A DNA stretch of 64,000 bases from Formivibrio citricus. GTDB taxonomy: Bacteria > Pseudomonadota > Gammaproteobacteria > Burkholderiales > Chitinibacteraceae. The position numbers were made by a program, and so were the translations under genes. The stretch lies in NCBI RefSeq assembly GCF_900115065.1, contig NZ_FOVE01000001.1:62001-126000 (forward strand). Reading direction: 5' to 3'. Of this stretch, positions 39,988-49,369 are shown one piece after another (the stretch's first letter is position 1; each line of letters opens with the position of its first letter). The notes beneath the pieces are model-generated. The model saw nothing but the letters and a program-made list of their open reading frames with translations, was not told the origin of the DNA and searched no databases.

Positions 39988-42810
39988 ATGATGAAAGAAT
40001 TCGAGGCGAATTCCTACCTGTTTGGCGGGAATGCGCCGTTCGTGGAGGAACTCTACGAGCAGTACCTGATCAATCCCAAATCCGTGGCCCCCGTCTGGCG
40101 CGAATATTTCGATTCGCTGCAACAGGCCACTTCGCAGATCGGGCGCGACATTCCGCGTGCGCCGGTCGAAGCCTCGTTCCGGGAACTCGCCAAGCAGCCG
40201 CGCCTGGCCACCCAGCGCAGCGAAACGCCGGAATCCACGCGCAAGCAGATCAGTCTGTTGCGCATGATCAATGCCTACCGGGCGCTGGGCTGCCGCCAGG
40301 CGACGCTCGATCCGTTGCGGCGCATGGACCAGACACGCATTCCCGAGCTCACCCCGGCTTTTCACGGTCTGAGCGATGCCGATGCCGCCGTGGTGTTCGG
40401 CACCAATATCACCAGCATGGAGCAGGCTTCGCTCGCCAAGGTCATGGCCTTTCTCAAGCAGACCTATTGCGGCAACATCGGCCTGGAATTCATGCACATC
40501 ACGCATTCCGAGCAGCGGCGCTGGGTGCAGGACTGGTTCGAAGACCGCCGTTCCACGCCAGCCTTCCCGAAAGAAAAGAAGCTTCGCATCCTCAAGCAGG
40601 TTACTGCCGCCGAAACGCTGGAACAGTACCTGCACAAGAAATACGTCGGCCAGAAGCGCTTCTCGCTCGAAGGCGGCGATTCGCTGATCGCCGGCCTCGA
40701 TTCGCTGATCCACGCTTCGGCGGCGCAGGGCTTGCAGGAAATCGTGATCGGCATGGCGCACCGGGGCCGGCTCAACGTGCTGGTCAATCTTCTGGGCAAA
40801 CAGCCGCGCGACCTTTTCAGCGAGTTCGAGGGTAAAACCGACACCCGGTTGTCCGCCGGCGACGTGAAGTACCACATGGGCTTCTCGTCGGACATCGCGA
40901 CCAGCCACGGCTCGATGCACCTGAGTCTTGCTTTCAACCCTTCGCATCTCGAAATCGTCAACCCGGTCGTGGAAGGCTCTACCCGCGCCCGCCAGCAGCG
41001 CCGCGGCGACCACGACGGCAGCGACGTGATGTCGGTGCTGATCCACGGCGATGCCGCCTTCATCGGGCTCGGCACCAACCAGGGCACGTTCAACCTCTCG
41101 CAGACGCGCGGCTACCGCACCGGCGGCACGCTGCATCTGGTGGTCAACAACCAGATCGGCTTCACGACTTCCGACCTGCGCGATGCGCGCTCCAGCATCT
41201 ATTGCACCGACATTGCCAAGATGATCGAAGCGCCGATCTTCCACGTGAACGGCGACGATCCGGAAGCGCTGTGCCTCGTGTTGCAGGCCGCGCTGGAATA
41301 CCGCATGAAGTTCCGCAAGGACGTGGTGATCGATCTGGTCTGCTTCCGCCGTCACGGGCACAACGAGGCCGACGATCCGTTCGTGACCCAGCCGATGATG
41401 TACAAGAAAATCGCCGCGCACCCCGGAGTGCGCAGCCGTTACGCCGAGCGGCTGGTGGCCGAAGGCGTGGTGACTGAGGCCGGCGCGAAGGCGATGATTG
41501 ATGTCTACCGCGCCGCGCTGGATCGCGGCGAACATGTCGAACTGACCGCACTGAGTGGCTACCGGCGCAAGTTCTCGGCGAATTTCGACCGCTTCATTGG
41601 AGCGGACTGGCGGCATTCGGTCGAAACCGCCGTGCCGCAAACCGACCTGATCCGCCTTGCCGACAAGTTCACGCGCAACCCGGAAGGCTTCAAGCTGCGC
41701 AACGCAGTAGAGAAACTGCTGGTCGACCGCAGCGAAATGGTACGCGGCAACCTGCCGGTGGACTGGGGCATGGCCGAGCATCTGGCCTATGCCACGCTGC
41801 TCAAGGAAGGCTACGGTGTGCGGCTGTCCGGCGAGGATGCCGGGCGCGGCACGTTCAGCCACCGCCACGCCGTGCTGCACGACCAGAACCGCGAGAAATG
41901 GGACCAGGGCGCCTATGTGCCGCTGGAGCATCTCTCGGAAAAACAGGCGCACTTCATCGTCATCGACTCGATCCTCAACGAGGAGGCGGTGCTGGCCTAC
42001 GAATACGGCTACGCCACCAGCGCGCCGGATGAGCTGGTGATCTGGGAGGCGCAGTTTGGCGACTTCGCCAACGGCGCGCAGGTCGTCATCGACCAGTTCA
42101 TCGCCGCGGGCGAGGCCAAGTGGGGGCGCCTGTGCGGGCTCGTCATGCTCTTGCCGCACGGCTACGACGGGCAGGGGCCGGAGCACTCCTCGGCGCGCGT
42201 CGAGCGTTACCTGCAGCTTTGCGCCGAGCACAATATCCAGGTGGTGATGATGTCGGAGGCCGCGCAGATGTTCCACGTGCTGCGCCGCCAGATCCTGCGC
42301 CCGGTGCGCAAGCCGCTGGTGGTCATCATGTCCAAGCGCCTGCTGCGCTACAAGGATTCGATGAGCCCGATCGGGGATTTCGCCAGCGGCGGTTTCCGCC
42401 TGGTGATCGGCGACCCGGCCAAGCCCGATCCGGCTGGCGTGAAGCGGGTGATCCTCTGCGCCGGGCAGGTCTATTACGACTTGGCCAACGCGCGCAAGGA
42501 GCGCGGCAACGACGAAATCGCCATCGTGCGCCTCGAACAACTGTACCCCTTCCCCACGCCTGAACTGCAGGCGGAGCTGGCGCAATATGCCGGCGCGCAA
42601 GAAGTGATGTGGGTGCAGGAAGAACCGCACAACCAGGGCGCGTGGTTCCAGATTCGCCACCGGCTGGAGGAATGCCTGCTGCCGGGGCAAACGCTGCGTT
42701 ACGCCGGCCGTCCGGATTCGGCCTCACCCGCCGTGGGCAGCATGGCCAAGCACAACGCGCAGCTCAAGGCGTTTCTGGATGAGGCGATGAGTGTTGATTT
42801 GGATAAGTGA
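39988..42810 (+). CDS. sucA: 2-oxoglutarate dehydrogenase E1 component
   Basis: A 940-residue thiamine-diphosphate enzyme that decarboxylates 2-oxoglutarate and succinylates the E2 lipoyl group. The N-terminal tail (FEANSYLFGGNAPFVEELYEQYL) binds E2. GMAHRGRLNVL, the ThDP-binding GDAAFIG...NNQIGFTT region, and the C-terminal pyrimidine-binding region with EFLP-like GYDGQGPEHSSARVERYLQL are intact. An AAGGAGCA ribosome site precedes the start at 39988; a second ATG follows at once. It diverges from the GGDEF regulator and heads the TCA block. Confidence 0.97.
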   Translation: MMKEFEANSYLFGGNAPFVEELYEQYLINPKSVAPVWREYFDSLQQATSQIGRDIPRAPVEASFRELAKQPRLATQRSETPESTRKQISLLRMINAYRALGCRQATLDPLRRMDQTRIPELTPAFHGLSDADAAVVFGTNITSMEQASLAKVMAFLKQTYCGNIGLEFMHITHSEQRRWVQDWFEDRRSTPAFPKEKKLRILKQVTAAETLEQYLHKKYVGQKRFSLEGGDSLIAGLDSLIHASAAQGLQEIVIGMAHRGRLNVLVNLLGKQPRDLFSEFEGKTDTRLSAGDVKYHMGFSSDIATSHGSMHLSLAFNPSHLEIVNPVVEGSTRARQQRRGDHDGSDVMSVLIHGDAAFIGLGTNQGTFNLSQTRGYRTGGTLHLVVNNQIGFTTSDLRDARSSIYCTDIAKMIEAPIFHVNGDDPEALCLVLQAALEYRMKFRKDVVIDLVCFRRHGHNEADDPFVTQPMMYKKIAAHPGVRSRYAERLVAEGVVTEAGAKAMIDVYRAALDRGEHVELTALSGYRRKFSANFDRFIGADWRHSVETAVPQTDLIRLADKFTRNPEGFKLRNAVEKLLVDRSEMVRGNLPVDWGMAEHLAYATLLKEGYGVRLSGEDAGRGTFSHRHAVLHDQNREKWDQGAYVPLEHLSEKQAHFIVIDSILNEEAVLAYEYGYATSAPDELVIWEAQFGDFANGAQVVIDQFIAAGEAKWGRLCGLVMLLPHGYDGQGPEHSSARVERYLQLCAEHNIQVVMMSEAAQMFHVLRRQILRPVRKPLVVIMSKRLLRYKDSMSPIGDFASGGFRLVIGDPAKPDPAGVKRVILCAGQVYYDLANARKERGNDEIAIVRLEQLYPFPTPELQAELAQYAGAQEVMWVQEEPHNQGAWFQIRHRLEECLLPGQTLRYAGRPDSASPAVGSMAKHNAQLKAFLDEAMSVDLDK

Positions 42811-42850
42811 GATTTGAGCCCGGATAACTTCATTTAGAGCCGAGCTTGCT

Positions 42851-42947
42851 CCTTCCCCCTCGCAGGGGGAAGGTCAGGATGGGGGTAGAGTCGTGGAATT
42901 TCACCATTTCTACCCTCTCCCTAGCCCTCCCCCTGCAAGGGGGAGGG
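42851..42947. repeat. element C, copy 1 (CCTTCCCCC type)
   Basis: Two hairpins, CCTTCCCCC...GGGGGAAGG and CCCTCCCCC...GGGGGAGGG, are joined by the pairing arms GATGGGGGTAGA / TCTACCCTCTCC, giving a cloverleaf-like palindrome. It lies 40 bases after the odhA stop. The reverse complement of this block recurs at 47862-47958. The rest of the 314-base gap before odhB shows a short palindromic stretch at 42990-43100 and no gene. Confidence 0.8.
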
Positions 42948-43124
42948 GATAAAGAGCCCAATGAATAGTCCGGGTGGAAATGGCCGTCATACCGGCGAAG
43001 GCCGGTATCCAGCACCGATACTGATTGAATAAATTTTCGTTGTTCATGCAAAGCGTTGAATCCGGAATCCTGCGGCTGGATTCCGGTTCAAGCCCGGAAT
43101 GACGAACAAAAAATGGAGCGAGAC

Positions 43125-44279
43125 ATGATCGTAGAAGTGAAAGTACCGCAGTTGCCTGAATCCGTAAGCGAAGCCACGCTGCTCGACTGGAAAAAACAGG
43201 TCGGCGAGGCGGTCGAGCGCGACGAGAACCTGATCGACATCGAAACCGACAAGGTGGTGCTGGAAGTCTGCGCGCCACAATCCGGCGTGCTGGTCGAGGT
43301 TGTGCACCAGCAGGGCGATACGGTGACGAGCCTCGATGTGATTGCCAGAATCGACGTGGCCGCTACGGCCAGCGCATCGCCGAAGCAAAGCGCAGAACAA
43401 AAGAGCGAAACCATCGCGATGCCGGCAGCAAAGAAACTGGCCGCCGAAACCGGCGTGAACCTGAATGAGGTGGCCGGCAGTGGGCGCGGCGGGCGCGTAC
43501 TCAAGGAAGACGTCGCCGCGCATGCGGCCAAGCCGGCGGCGCCGGTTGCAGCTCCCATGCCGCAAACCGTGGCCGGCGACCGCCCTGAACAGCGCGTGCC
43601 GATGAGCCGTTTGCGCCAGCGCGTGGCCGAACGCCTGATCCAGTCGCAAGCCGAAAACGCCATCCTCACCACCTTCAACGAAGTGAACATGCAGCCGGTG
43701 ATGGACCTGCGCAACAAGTACAAGGACAAATTCGAGAAAGACCACGGCGTGCGCCTCGGCTTCATGTCCTTCTTCGTCAAGGCCGTGGTGCAGGCGCTGC
43801 GCAAGTATCCGGTGGTCAACGCCTCGATCGACGGCAGCGACATCGTCTACCACGGCTACTACGACATCGGCGTCGCGGTCGGCAGCCCGCGCGGGCTGGT
43901 GGTGCCGATCATCCGCAATGCCGATCTGTTGAGCCTGGCGGATATCGAGCGCCAGATCGCCGACTTCGGCAAGCGCGCGCAGGACGGCCGCCTGACCGTC
44001 GAAGAATTGACTGGCGGCACCTACACCATCTCCAACGGCGGCCCCTATGGCTCGCTGATGTCCACCCCGATCATCAACCCCCCGCAAGCCGCCATCCTCG
44101 GCATGCACGCGATCAAGGACCGCCCCATCGTCGAAGACGGCCAGATCGTCGCCCGCCCCATGATGTACCTCGCGCAATCCTACGACCACCGCCTGATCGA
44201 TGGCCGCGAAGCAGTGTTGAGCCTGGTAGCGATCAAGGAAGCCATCGAAGACCCGACGCGGCTGTTGCTGGACGTCTGA
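43125..44279 (+). CDS. sucB: 2-oxoglutarate dehydrogenase E2 (dihydrolipoyl succinyltransferase)
   Basis: A 384-residue core subunit that transfers succinyl from E1 to CoA. The lipoyl domain (1-75) has Lys43 in [11 protein letters not shown]. The peripheral-subunit-binding domain (about 100-140) is [23 protein letters not shown]. The catalytic domain ends with [13 protein letters not shown] (His and Asp of the active site). Slightly short for the family (about 400) because the linkers are short. The start at 43125 has a GGAGCGA ribosome site. It follows odhA after element C1. lpd is displaced downstream by a MORN-repeat gene. Confidence 0.97.
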
Positions 44280-44280
44280 C

Positions 44281-44326
44281 CCAACCCCCTCTCCCTTCCA
44301 AGGAGAGGGCCGGGGTGAGGGTGAAT
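44281..44326 (+). repeat. 46-bp direct repeat, left copy (half of element C)
   Basis: This block, starting CCAACCCCCTCTCCCTTCCA and ending GGGTGAGGGTGAAT, recurs at 46163-46208 with 2 differences in 46. It forms a hairpin CCCTCTCC/GGAGAGGG. The pair brackets the AT-rich MORN gene. Confidence 0.85.
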
Positions 44327-44383
44327 TGTTTCAGTGATATTTGGTAATCAAAATTTGTGATTGATTCTGTTCTGGAGAAAAGC

Positions 44384-46030
44384 ATGAAAACTTGGCGCGG
44401 AATGAGTTTGGGGCTGTTGCTGGCTGGTGGGCTGCTGGCGCAGGGGGCTTGGGCGGGGGAGTGGATTGCCGATGCCAAGGGGTGCAAGGTTTGGAGTGAT
44501 TACCCTTTGAAAAAAGGAACGACAATTTCTTTATGGCCGGGTAATTGTGATAAAGGCATTGCATCTGGAGAGGGAAGCTTGCAGTGGTTTGAGAATGGTG
44601 TTCCAGATGGGAAGTATGAGGGGAAAATTGTTGATGGTAAATTTGATGGAAAAGGTGTTTTTTATTTCCCAAGTGGCGGACGTTATGAAGGTGATTTCGT
44701 AAAGGGTAAACGCACAGGTAAGGGTGTGTATGTTTTTGAAAGTGGTAGCCGTTATGAAGGTGATTTTGTTGATGGGTATTTCCATGGAAAAGGTGTTTTT
44801 ACATCGAAAGATGGCGATCGCTATGAAGGGAATTTTATAAAGGACAAAAAAACTGGTAAAGGCATTTACACTTTTGCAAGTGGCAGCCACTACGAAGGTG
44901 ATTTTGTAGACGGGGAGTTCCATGGAAAAGGTATCTATACATGGAAAAATGGTGGACGCTACGAAGGTGATTTCGTAAAAGGGAAGTTTACAGGTAAAGG
45001 TATTTTTGTTTCTACAAATGGTAATCGCTATGAAGGTGATTTTGTGGATGAGATTTTTCATGGGAAAGGTATTTTTACATGGAAAGATGGCAATCGCTAC
45101 GAAGGTGATTTTGTAAATGGTAAGCGCACCGGGAAAGGTATTTATACTGCCGTAAGTGGCATGCGTTATGAGGGTAATTTTGTAGATGGAAGGTTCGCAG
45201 GTAATGGTACTTCTACTTGGAAAAACGGAATTACCTATACTGGTGAGTTTATTGATGGTAAGCGGACTGGATTTGGTACGTTACGTGTGCCGCATGGCGC
45301 CTATGTTGGAAAGGAACGATCGAATAAAGGCAAGTGGAAAATGGAAGAGGGGTTCTCTTACTTTGAAGAAAGAGGCATATTTAAAAACAACGCATTTATC
45401 ATGGCATGTGAAAATAAAAATGCTTGTGAAGATATGGTGCGCGAGCCTTATCGTGCGGAATTCCGTAATGCAGCTAGTAGTAGTGAGCTGAATGGCTTTA
45501 TCGAGAAATACAAAGATAACGACCCGGATGGTCTGGTGCCACAGGCACGTAAGAAAATTCCAGCGGCTCAGAAGTACGAACGGGAGCAAGAGCGCCTTGC
45601 TGCAATCAAGCGTGCAAAAGAAGAGCGCGAGGCATATCGAACTGCGTTCAAGAATGCTTCAAGCAGCAGTGATCTGTCGGCATTTGTAGAGCGCTACAAA
45701 AACAATGATCCTGAAAAGTTGGTGCCGAAAGCGCGTCAGAAAATATCAGCCGCACAGAAACGGGAGCGCGATCAGAGTGCCAAACAAGAAAGAGAATATG
45801 CCGCCAGATTGGCGCAGGAATGTGGGCGTTTGTACCCGGGTAAATTGGTATCCTGGACAGCTAAAATGTGTGAAGGCCGTGTATTGGGCCTTTTTGGTGG
45901 TGGATGTTATGACGAGAAATTTCAAGGGATAATCGTAGGTGGAGGTAAAGGTATTGCGACAGCAAAAATTACCAAGCCTTCTCATAAAAGTGGTGAGTAT
46001 TCGGAAAGGTCTTGTTCCGATTTTAATTGA
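44384..46030 (+). CDS. exported MORN-repeat protein
   Basis: 548 residues. A signal peptide (about 1-24, ending near GAWA) is followed by ten 23-residue MORN repeats (about residues 83-312; consensus RYEGDFVxGxxxGKGxxTxxxG). Repeats of the VDGxFHGKG and VKGKRTGKG types alternate. The C-terminal part has two near-identical ~45-residue blocks (SSSxLxxFxExYKxNDP, LVPxARxKI, AAQKxER), and the last ~75 residues hold several Cys. It is probably periplasmic or surface-attached; its role is unknown. The DNA is AT-rich against its neighbours and bracketed by 46-bp direct repeats between odhB and lpd, so it is not part of the dehydrogenase. Confidence 0.85.
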   Translation: MKTWRGMSLGLLLAGGLLAQGAWAGEWIADAKGCKVWSDYPLKKGTTISLWPGNCDKGIASGEGSLQWFENGVPDGKYEGKIVDGKFDGKGVFYFPSGGRYEGDFVKGKRTGKGVYVFESGSRYEGDFVDGYFHGKGVFTSKDGDRYEGNFIKDKKTGKGIYTFASGSHYEGDFVDGEFHGKGIYTWKNGGRYEGDFVKGKFTGKGIFVSTNGNRYEGDFVDEIFHGKGIFTWKDGNRYEGDFVNGKRTGKGIYTAVSGMRYEGNFVDGRFAGNGTSTWKNGITYTGEFIDGKRTGFGTLRVPHGAYVGKERSNKGKWKMEEGFSYFEERGIFKNNAFIMACENKNACEDMVREPYRAEFRNAASSSELNGFIEKYKDNDPDGLVPQARKKIPAAQKYEREQERLAAIKRAKEEREAYRTAFKNASSSSDLSAFVERYKNNDPEKLVPKARQKISAAQKRERDQSAKQEREYAARLAQECGRLYPGKLVSWTAKMCEGRVLGLFGGGCYDEKFQGIIVGGGKGIATAKITKPSHKSGEYSERSCSDFN

Positions 46031-46162
46031 CCTAATTTGAATGCGGCGAGCTGAAGTGGGCCGGAAAAGCGAAGCGCCTTTCGACGTATGTTTGATTTTT
46101 AGTTGTTGCTACTATATGTCGGAAGGCGCTCTTTCCGAGCTTTTCCGATCCGCTTGGCCAAT

Positions 46163-46276
46163 CCAACCCCCTCTCCCTTCCAGGGAGAGGGCTGGGGTGA
46201 GGGTGAATGGCTTGATTCTTTGCTGAATTATTCAGAATTCACCCCCACCCTAACCCTCCCCCTGAAATGGGGAGGG
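46163..46276. repeat. element C, copy 3 (complete), includes right direct repeat
   Basis: The left hairpin CCCTCTCCC/GGGAGAGGG and the arm GGGGTGAGGGTGAAT pair with ATTCACCCCCACCC. The right hairpin CCCTCCCC/GGGGAGGG completes the element. The first 46 bases equal the repeat at 44281-44326. It ends 41 bases before the lpd start. Confidence 0.8.
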
Positions 46277-46317
46277 AACAATGTTCCGAAAGTGTTTCCG
46301 AGTTCACAGGAAAAACC

Positions 46318-47751
46318 ATGCCTCAAAATTTCGATGTTCTGGTCATCGGCGCCGGCCCCGGCGGTTATGTGGCGGCGATCCGCGCTGCGCAATTGGGCTT
46401 CAAGGTTGCCTGTGTGGATGAATTCAAGAATCCAGCCGGTCAGCCGAGTCTGGGCGGGACTTGCCTCAACGTCGGCTGCATTCCTTCCAAGGCGCTGCTT
46501 GAATCTTCGGAAAACTTTGCGCGTGCGGCGCACGGGTTCGCGGCGCATGGTATTGCCGTGGACGGGCTGCGTTTCGATGCCGGGCAGATGCAGGCGCGCA
46601 AGAACGAGATCGTAACCAAGCTCACGCAAGGCATCGCGTTTCTCTTCAAGAAGAACAAGATAACCAGCCTGCATGGCCATGGCCGGATGCTGGGGCGGGA
46701 AGGGGAGGTGTGGCAGGTCGAGGTCAATTGCGACGAAGCCCGCGAAGTGGCCGCCGCCCGGCATGTGATTCTGGCGACGGGCTCAAAGCCGCGCATGCTG
46801 CCCGGCGTGGAGATCGACAACGTTCGGGTGCTGGACAATGCCGGCGCGCTGGCGCTCGATGCTGTCCCTGCGCGGCTCGGCGTGATCGGCGCGGGAGTGA
46901 TCGGGTTGGAGCTGGGTTCGGTCTGGCGGCGGCTGGGTGCGGAGGTGACCTTGCTCGAAGCCATGCCGGCTTTCCTGCCCGCAGCCGATCAGGCGGTGGC
47001 GCGTGAGGCGCTGCGGCTATTTACCCGCGATCATGGGCTGAAAATCCAGACCGGGGTCGAAATCCAGTCGGTCAAGGCCGGGCAGGAAGAGGTAATTGTG
47101 CACTGGAAAAGTGCGAAGGACGGGGAACAGACCGCAACCTTTGATAAACTACTGGTTTGCGTAGGCCGCGCGCCGAACGTGGAAGGGCTGCTGGCCGATG
47201 GCGTGGCGCTTCAGCGTGACGAGCGCGGCTTTGTTGTGGTCGATGAAACGGGCCGCACCAGCCTGCCCGATGTGTGGGCGATAGGCGATGTGACACCGGG
47301 GCCGATGCTCGCGCACCGGGCCAGCGAAGAAGGCGTGGCGGTGGCCGAACGCATCGCCGGCCAAAAGCCGCACGTGGATTTCAGTTGCATTCCTTGGGTG
47401 ATGTACACCAGCCCGGAAATTGCCTGGGTCGGCAAGACCGAACAGCAGTTGCAGGCCGAAGGCGTGGACTACAAAAAGGGGCAATTCCCCTTTGCCGCCA
47501 ATGGTCGTGCGCTGGCGCTGGGCGAATCCGCCGGATTCGTGAAGATGCTGGCCTGTGCCAAAACCGACCGGATTCTGGGCGTGCATGCCATCGGGCCGAT
47601 GGCGAGCGAATTGATTGCCGAAGCGGTGGTGGCGATGGAGTTCAAGGCTTCGAGTGAGGACATCGCGCGCATCGTTCATGCGCATCCGTCGCTCTCTGAG
47701 GCGCTGCATGAGGCTGCGCTGGGTTGCGACAAGCGCGGGCTGCATTCTTGA
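46318..47751 (+). CDS. lpd: dihydrolipoyl dehydrogenase (E3)
   Basis: A 477-residue flavoenzyme that reoxidises the E2 lipoyl group with NAD+. FAD-binding GAGPGG lies at residues 11-16. The redox disulfide is Cys49/Cys54 in [13 protein letters not shown]. The NAD-binding motif is [16 protein letters not shown], the second FAD motif is VWAIGDVT, and the active-site base is His in [13 protein letters not shown]. The length is standard. It completes the odhA-odhB-lpd complex, although the MORN cassette separates it from odhB. The start at 46318 is fixed by the family N-terminus. Confidence 0.97.
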
Positions 47752-47770
47752 GCTTTGTACAAAACGGTTT

Positions 47771-48026
47771 AACCACAGAAGCACAGAGTACACAGAGAAA
47801 ATCAGGTTGTTGCGCATAGTGTACTCGGCGTCAGACCTGATGATTTGATTGGGTTTTTGTTCCCTCCCCCTTGCAGGGGGAGGGCTAGGGTGGGGGTAGA
47901 AAAGATGGAATTCCATGACGCTACCCCCATCCTGACCTTCCCCCTGCAAGGGGGAAGGAACCAGCCCGGTGCCAATGCATTTCCGGGGTGAATTTCTCCC
48001 CATCTCAGTGGCTCTGTGGTGAGAAT
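47771..48026. repeat. element D, copy 1, with element C inserted between its arms
   Basis: The left arm AACCACAGAAGCACAGAG (47771) and right arm CTCAGTGGCTCTGTGGTGAG (to 48026) are inverted, about 200 bases apart. Element C4 (47862-47958) lies between them. In copy 2 (49272-49355) the arms are close together, so copy 1 looks interrupted (inference). Confidence 0.65.
47862..47958. repeat. element C, copy 4 (inverted relative to copy 1)
   Basis: CCCTCCCCC...GGGGGAGGG, the arms TGGGGGTAG/CTACCCCCA, and CCTTCCCCC...GGGGGAAGG form a block that is almost the reverse complement of 42851-42947. Copies 1 and 4 bracket odhB, the MORN gene and lpd as inverted repeats about 4.9 kb apart. Confidence 0.8.
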
Positions 48027-48047
48027 TTGGGGTTTAAGGTTGTTCCC

Positions 48048-48072
48048 GGCGGGTTGCTTCGCGAACCTGCCC
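48048..48072. repeat. small hairpin repeat G, copy 2
   Basis: GGCGGGTTGCTTCGCGAACC and the following TGCC match the repeat at 29425-29448. It ends 18 bases before the sucC start. With D1 and C4 it fills the 339-base lpd-sucC gap, in which no gene is seen. Confidence 0.65.
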
Positions 48073-48090
48073 TACCAATGAGGAAGATAC

Positions 48091-49257
48091 ATGAATTTGC
48101 ACGAGTACCAGGCCAAGGCCCTGCTGGCGAAGTACGGCCTGCCTGTGGATCAGGGTGAACTGGCGACTACGCCGGAAGAAGCTGCAACCGCATTCAACAA
48201 GCTGGGTAAACCCAGCGCTGTGCTCAAGGCGCAGGTGCATGCCGGTGGCCGGGGCAAGGCCGGGGGCGTGAAGGTGGTGAAATCGGCGCAGGAAGCCGCC
48301 GATCTGGCTCGCGCGCTGCTGGGCACGAATCTCGTGACCTACCAGACCGATGCGCAAGGCCAGCCGGTGAACAGCGTGCTGCTGGTCGGCAACATCTATC
48401 CGGTCGAGCGCGAACTGTATCTCGGCGCGGTGGTCGATCGCGCCAGCCAGCGCGTGGTGTTCATGGCCTCGACCGAGGGCGGTGTAGAGATCGAAGAGGT
48501 CGCACAGAATACCCCCGAGAAAATCATCAAGATCGAGGTCGATCCGCTGGTCGGCATGCAGCCGTTCCAGACGCGCGATGCGGCGTTTGCACTCGGCCTC
48601 AAGGGCGACCAGATCAAGCAGTTTGAAAAGCTCATGCTCGGCGCCTACAAGGCGTTCATCGAGAACGACTTTGCGCTGTTCGAAGTCAACCCGCTCGCCG
48701 TACTCAAGGACGGTCAACTGATGTGTGTCGATGCCAAGATCAACATCGACGCCAACGCGCTCTACCGCCACGCCGATCTCGTGGCGCTGCGCGACAAGAG
48801 CCAGGAAAACGAGCGCGAGGTCAAAGCCTCCGAGTTTGACCTCAACTACGTGGCGCTCGACGGCAATATCGGCTGCATGGTCAACGGCGCCGGGCTGGCG
48901 ATGGCGACCATGGACATCATCAAACTCAAGGGCGGCAGCCCGGCCAACTTCCTCGACGTGGGCGGCGGTTCGAACAAGGAAAAGGTCATCGGTGCCTTCA
49001 AGCTGATCCTGGCCGATGATTCGGTCAAGGGCGTGCTGATCAACATCTTCGGCGGCATCGTGCGTTGCGACATGATCGCCGAAGCGATTGTCGCGGCGGT
49101 GCGCGAAGTGGGCGTCACCGTGCCGGTGGTCGTGCGCCTCGAAGGCAACAATGCCGACCTCGGTATACAGATTCTCTCCGAATCCGGTCTGCAACTGATC
49201 CCGGCGCAAGGGCTCAACGATGCGGCGGAAAAGATTGTCGCGGCTGTGGCAGCCTGA
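48091..49257 (+). CDS. sucC: succinyl-CoA synthetase beta subunit
   Basis: A 388-residue ATP-grasp subunit of the enzyme that converts succinyl-CoA to succinate with ATP/GTP formation. It starts [19 protein letters not shown]. The ATP-grasp domain has [18 protein letters not shown] and [14 protein letters not shown], and the C-terminal CoA-ligase domain has [18 protein letters not shown]. The length matches E. coli SucC (388). A GAGGAAG ribosome site precedes 48091. It lies between lpd and sucD in the TCA block. Confidence 0.98.
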
Positions 49258-49271
49258 TCGAAAGAAACTCT

Positions 49272-49355
49272 GAACCACAGAGACACAGAGATCGGGAGAA
49301 AACCGGAAGAAACCAACTCATGGTTTTCTCATTTTCTCTGTGGCTCTGTGGTGAA
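49272..49355. repeat. element D, copy 2 (sucC-sucD spacer hairpin)
   Basis: The arms GAACCACAGAGACACAGAGA and TCTCTGTGGCTCTGTGGT are inverted, with an inner pair GAGAAAACC/GGTTTTCTC. It fills most of the 112-base sucC-sucD spacer and would form a long hairpin in the cotranscript. Confidence 0.8.
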
Positions 49356-49369
49356 AAAGGATTTTTAGA

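Follow-up and report, generated by a model that had tools for sequence, protein, structure and literature searches.

The window analysed here is a stretch of 64,000 nucleotides from Formivibrio citricus. Within it, a gene for a MORN-repeat protein occupies the gap between odhB and lpd in the 2-oxoglutarate dehydrogenase operon and is bracketed by two direct repeats, outside which odhB and lpd are the immediate neighbors (Table 1). The name odhB follows an earlier note on this DNA and general knowledge of the family. The MORN gene has 44% GC and 37% GC3, compared with 62–63% GC and 73–84% GC3 in odhA, odhB, lpd, and sucC.

Table 1. Features of the operon segment around the MORN gene (positions are those of the window)
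Feature	Position	Strand	Description
BoxC doublet, odhA–odhB gap	42849–42949	-	
odhB (2-oxoglutarate dehydrogenase E2), upstream neighbor	43125–44279	+	tblastn, 78% identity to two same-genus operons
Left repeat	44281–44326 (model match 44285–44327)	+	Single BoxC/PIT/TM arm, type B, CCGGGG
Lineage-specific gene, 548 aa	44384 (ATG)–46030 (stop end)	+	Signal-like N-terminus, MORN stretches, two helical modules, C-terminal tail
GTAG-type REP dimer-like hairpin	~46055–46155	+	Fold z -3.8, GTGG head
Right repeat	46163–46208	+	Type B arm of a complete BoxC inverted doublet
Partner arm of right repeat	46236–46278	-	Type A (TTAGGG), same BoxC doublet
lpd, downstream neighbor	46318–47751	+	One 100% match in the genome, next listed 37%
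BoxC doublet, lpd–sucC gap	47860–47960	+	

The encoded protein scores 190 bits against the Pfam MORN model, whose cut-off is 22.5, with nine MORN stretches at E ≤ 0.001 and ten at E ≤ 1, which identifies it as a MORN-repeat protein. A single-sequence structure model, weak as a whole (mean pLDDT 63.5), places strands at residues 77–301 and helices at residues 345–503 and reaches a pLDDT of 80–92 over much of the MORN part; residues 77–270 match solved MORN1 chains. MORN repeats are protein–protein interaction modules, according to the parts of PMC7725318 considered here. The present protein resembles those covered there in having MORN stretches far beyond the Pfam cut-off, and it differs from them in being bacterial, in its signal-like N-terminus, and in helical modules that are common to one other gene of its own genome. 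The signal-like stretch, recognized by eye, suggests that the protein is probably exported, and it may serve as an exported scaffold for protein–protein interactions, unrelated to the flanking enzymes. The gene that shares the helical modules lies on contig C26 (L011:886–2094, G000:C26 ~91950–93160) and combines an Lcl_C domain with two module copies of 86–87% identical DNA; its modules are likewise unmatched in the remaining family genomes. The second helical module of the MORN gene is identical to the C26 module at 120 of 138 nucleotides and to its own neighboring module at 87 of 138.

Among the other 42 family genomes, no match to the MORN protein was found at E ≤ 0.001 (own genome only, 1 of 43), and no full-length orthologue emerged from the family, order-wide, or named-genome searches. 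At the level of the order, 79 of 399 genomes (the one under study among them) gave matches at E ≤ 1e-10, through either the MORN repeats (up to 51%) or the helical modules. The named-genome scan yielded 34 pattern stretches, none of which was confirmed, while the phage and plasmid searches returned 2 and 25 records, respectively, all below 60% identity. NCBIfam and PADLOC searches gave no match.

The earlier note had claimed that near-identical 46-bp direct repeats flank the gene, and sequence comparison bears this out. The left and right copies agree at 44 of 46 positions in direct orientation, with a start-to-start distance of 1882 bp, and at 47 of 51 when the alignment is lengthened to 44331 and 46213. 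Shuffling the window 100 times by dinucleotide never produced a match to the 35-base pattern common to both copies (at most three mismatches). The accompanying claim that only an AT-rich MORN gene lies between the repeats held for the composition but not for the content, as the REP-type hairpin is also inside. By their sequence, both repeats are members of the widespread and already described BoxC/PIT/TM family of potential intrastrand-triplex elements (Holder et al. 2015, PMC4666352). This rules out private 46-bp recombination sites, since the repeat belongs to a multi-copy family. The assignment follows from sequence, fold, and core likeness: the repeats contain a hairpin of CCCTCTCCC and GGGAGAGGG with a short loop, followed by a third purine block, and they agree in this with the core CCCTCTCCC-loop-GGGAGAGGG-short loop-GGGGTGAGGG given in the parts of PMC4666352 considered here. 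Arms of types A and B that pair as inverted repeats are likewise described there and are found here in the right doublet, which spans 46163–46278 (model place 46167–46278) and folds with a z-score of -5.1 over 46160–46280; the left repeat has no partner arm. Further points in common with that description are the many, mostly intergenic copies and a number that varies among close relatives, whereas two same-direction copies that flank one lineage-specific gene set this locus apart from it. A search of 42600–48200 against Rfam gave no match.

Genome-wide, the 35-base form (at most three mismatches) had 8 matches versus 0 for the reversed control, and the 21-base core had 35 versus 9. Seventeen copies were used to build a model of 43 positions, which gave 71 matches in the 3.07-Mb genome. 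Of these, 48 were full-length and occupied 33 places, 15 with an inverted doublet and 18 with a single arm; the other 23 cover only positions 3–25 or 3–26 and were left out as opposite-strand shadows of the palindrome. Matches to this model occurred in 22 of the 43 family genomes, with 71 in the genome under study, one in the same-genus genome G002, and none in the same-genus genome G001. Separately, a family relative with a 5.1-Mb genome (G008) had 140 matches, and the two other searched genomes of its genus had none. A search of E. coli with the doublet at a permissive E ≤ 1 matched at least some part of it in 4351 of 5426 genomes, with more than 80% of the doublet covered in only 8. One further doublet of the genome, at L160:3817–3930 (G000:C12:21816–21929), lies inside an uninterrupted 754-aa frame and appears to be a repeat that inserted in frame into a coding gene. 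By its reading, this frame is a putative glutamine-dependent NAD synthetase. Copies in E. coli K-12, by comparison, are always intergenic according to the parts of PMC4666352 considered here.

Four of the 33 BoxC places sit in this one operon: the doublets at either end of Table 1, the left repeat, and the right doublet. Its gaps are far longer than those of both same-genus genomes (~314 versus 37–40, 2038 versus 112–126, 339 versus 99–100, and 112 versus 21–29 bp), and repeats are present in each of the four. The three gaps other than that of the MORN gene (42811–43124, 47752–48090, and 49258–49369) are thus also enlarged, and two of them hold BoxC; further repeat types were seen in them by eye, namely ACCACAGAG...CTCTGTGGTGA pairs and one CGTCATACCGG...CCGGAATGACG pair. 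A simulation in which the 33 places were distributed at random, and which took account neither of contig ends nor of the intergenic preference, produced at least one pair of neighboring copies in the same direction and no more than 1.9 kb apart in 27% of 5000 trials. The actual genome has four adjacent pairs that are this close (three in this operon, the fourth on C31); under uniform placement, 0.24% of 5000 trials reached four or more. BoxC is gathered locally. The repeats probably flank the gene because BoxC elements have gathered in the gaps of this operon, rather than as dedicated excision sites.

The comparison with relatives that the earlier note had proposed gave a divided answer. In the 29 of 36 family relatives with loci, the odhB–lpd gap measures 51–161 bp (112 and 126 bp in the two same-genus genomes) and lacks the gene, but these loci contain no BoxC-model match either, nor do the operon stretches fetched from both same-genus genomes. 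The absence of BoxC from the 29 loci contradicts the idea that one complete element between odhB and lpd is the older state. A different purine-rich inverted repeat (GTGAGGAGTGAGGAG ... CACCTCAC), unmatched by the BoxC model, was seen by eye in the gaps of L043, L061, L064, and L070. Beyond the family, gap sizes were obtained for 76 of 80 named loci, the other four having no odhB end just upstream: 65 gaps measured 2–221 bp, 10 measured 363–465 bp, and one measured 957 bp. No match to the MORN protein was found among the 80 loci. Compared with these relatives, the MORN gene is, on the sequence evidence, a lineage-specific addition. The 11 long gaps (363–957 bp) contain open frames; among the 363–465-bp gaps, the frames as printed show a PspC pattern in five cases, and one was confirmed by Pfam. 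No BoxC match was found in these 11 loci, so the odhB–lpd gap also accepts genes without BoxC. The 957-bp gap, in an uncultured member of the Burkholderiaceae (L218, ~140–1096), holds an unrelated open stretch of 254 residues with a signal-like part. A search for a second repeat-flanked gene at this place found no direct repeats around the stretch.

The hairpin inside the insert bears on where the added DNA came from. It is a GTRG-headed, paired palindrome, as are the GTAG-type REP dimers described in the parts of PMC3733652 considered here and REPINs (compare PMC3116915). Matches to it number six in its own genome (itself included), seven in G001, three in G002, and one in G020, so that both same-genus genomes contain matches. 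Given the REP dimer and the C26-like module, at least the 3' part of the insert looks home-grown, and a purely foreign insert was rejected on these two observations. Judging from these likenesses, the insert was at least partly shaped in this lineage, irrespective of where the AT-rich MORN part originated. BoxC doublets are inverted pairs, like REPINs, but unlike GTAG-type REP elements, BoxC arms have no GTAG head at the palindrome when inspected by eye. RAYT-like genes are represented by six PF01797 matches at five places in the genome, one of them below the cut-off; BoxC was found in one of the five stretches around them (L165), and no RAYT-like gene was found in or beside the odhB–lpd locus. 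Mobilization of BoxC as a REPIN by a RAYT was not favored, as BoxC lacks the GTAG head and the RAYT-like genes lie elsewhere.

The close likeness of the two repeats could point to a linked origin. In a 51-base comparison of 32 genome copies, left and right are mutual best matches (47 identical positions; next best 39 for the left and 42 for the right), although two further pairs, each across different contigs, likewise reach 47 of 51. This comparison and that of the core took 32 of the 35 hits of the 21-base search, leaving out L038, which overlaps L037, and two hits without a locus. Both repeats also share CCAA, four bases outside the usual element. Over the 36-base core, the two agree at 34 positions; within the genome, the right copy is tied at 34 between the left copy and a copy on C23, and the second best for the left copy is 32. 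Two E. coli chromosomal copies show the same 34 of 36 to the left and to the right alike, so the likeness of left and right is weak evidence of duplication; these copies came from the top of the search with the right doublet, which makes them a lenient control. Of the 23 E. coli copies in Table 1 of PMC4666352, as far as that source was used, four were transcribed and the three of 36 letters compared: 35, 33, and 34 positions are identical to the right repeat and 33, 33, and 34 to the left. Identity at 44 of 46 positions therefore falls within the usual likeness of the BoxC family, and very similar doublets on different contigs (C12b/C14) indicate that close likeness needs no linked event. The argument that sister copies prove a duplication is weakened by the E. 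coli copies, the C23 tie, and these doublets. Nevertheless, a linked origin of the two copies is possible, given the mutual-best likeness over 51 bases, the shared CCAA, and the leniency of the E. coli control.

Such a link would arise if DNA carrying the MORN gene and BoxC had recombined with a resident BoxC in the odhB–lpd gap, through either a single crossover of a circle or a double crossover with a donor that had BoxC on both sides. The mutual-best pairing and the common CCAA would fit this route, as would a gene-free form with a gap of ~156 bp, like that of relatives. However, the core is equally near to the two E. coli copies and, on the right, to the C23 copy, comparably similar doublets sit on separate contigs, and no donor locus was found. 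We therefore regard repeat-linked insertion as unlikely.

The earlier note had also raised a possible excisable cassette. In this reading, taken here to include an on/off switch, a crossover between the 46-bp repeats would regularly remove the gene. The arithmetic is right: a crossover would remove the gene and leave ~156 bp, inside the 51–161 bp range of relatives. Direct repeats of suitable geometry do exist, and the MORN protein is unmatched in the rest of the family. Beyond this geometry, the proposal found no support. The repeats are two copies of widespread BoxC and not specific to the MORN gene, and so provide no good evidence for a special cassette. No recombinase was found between them: the insert is largely taken up by the MORN frame, and four overlapping frames (101–176 aa) matched no recombinase family, although one showed a match, below the cut-off, to an insect eggshell family. 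Additionally, the 29 empty gaps of relatives lack the BoxC match that deletion products would carry, and the assembly, a type of data that cannot reveal a minority form, holds one arrangement only (a single 100% lpd). We thus consider a dedicated cassette or switch very improbable. An integron gene cassette was also rejected, as no GTTRRRY was seen at the 3' end of the hairpin (46031–46162, by eye only). The ends of attC sites are paired RYYYAAC and GTTRRRY.

A broader version treats direct BoxC copies as natural deletion or capture points. Replication stalling at two putatively triplex-forming copies would drive gain and loss of the accessory gene, and lpd would alternate between being closely coupled to odhB and standing apart from it behind 2 kb of inserted DNA that forms strong hairpins. 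In the parts of PMC4666352 considered here, a link between the motif and genome variability is reported, with a mechanism that its authors call unclear. For this locus, we give the stalling idea very little credence. An original presence of the MORN gene in the operon, followed by its loss from every relative, is scarcely credible; this idea has nothing in its favor beyond possibility and is opposed by the missing protein match at the 29 measured family loci and the 80 named loci and by a composition unlike that of the neighbors.

The arrangement is best explained, with a probability of about 70%, as an accessory MORN gene in a repeat-filled odhB–lpd gap, bracketed by common repeats and not by dedicated excision sites. 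A gene for a probably exported MORN protein would have entered this gap, co-oriented with the 2-oxoglutarate dehydrogenase operon, most likely by illegitimate or ectopic recombination at the repeat-rich gap. BoxC copies would have gathered on both sides before or after the addition, and loss of the gene would occur only at the low rate typical of any short direct repeat. The variable stretch around E. coli TM loci, which averages 2966 nt in the parts of PMC4666352 considered here, was counted in favor of this explanation, and the mutual-best likeness of the repeats, their shared CCAA, and the BoxC clustering (0.24% of trials) were counted against it.

Among the matches listed in a literature search on genes bracketed by REP-type direct repeats, the arrangement described here is absent, which is no proof that it has gone unreported. 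With an accessory gene among common repeats as the preferred reading, a striking-looking cassette becomes a concrete case in which copies of a known repeat family have gathered within a single operon. Furthermore, if deletion between direct BoxC copies proved frequent, it would offer a mechanism for the link between the motif and genome variability reported in the parts of PMC4666352 considered here.
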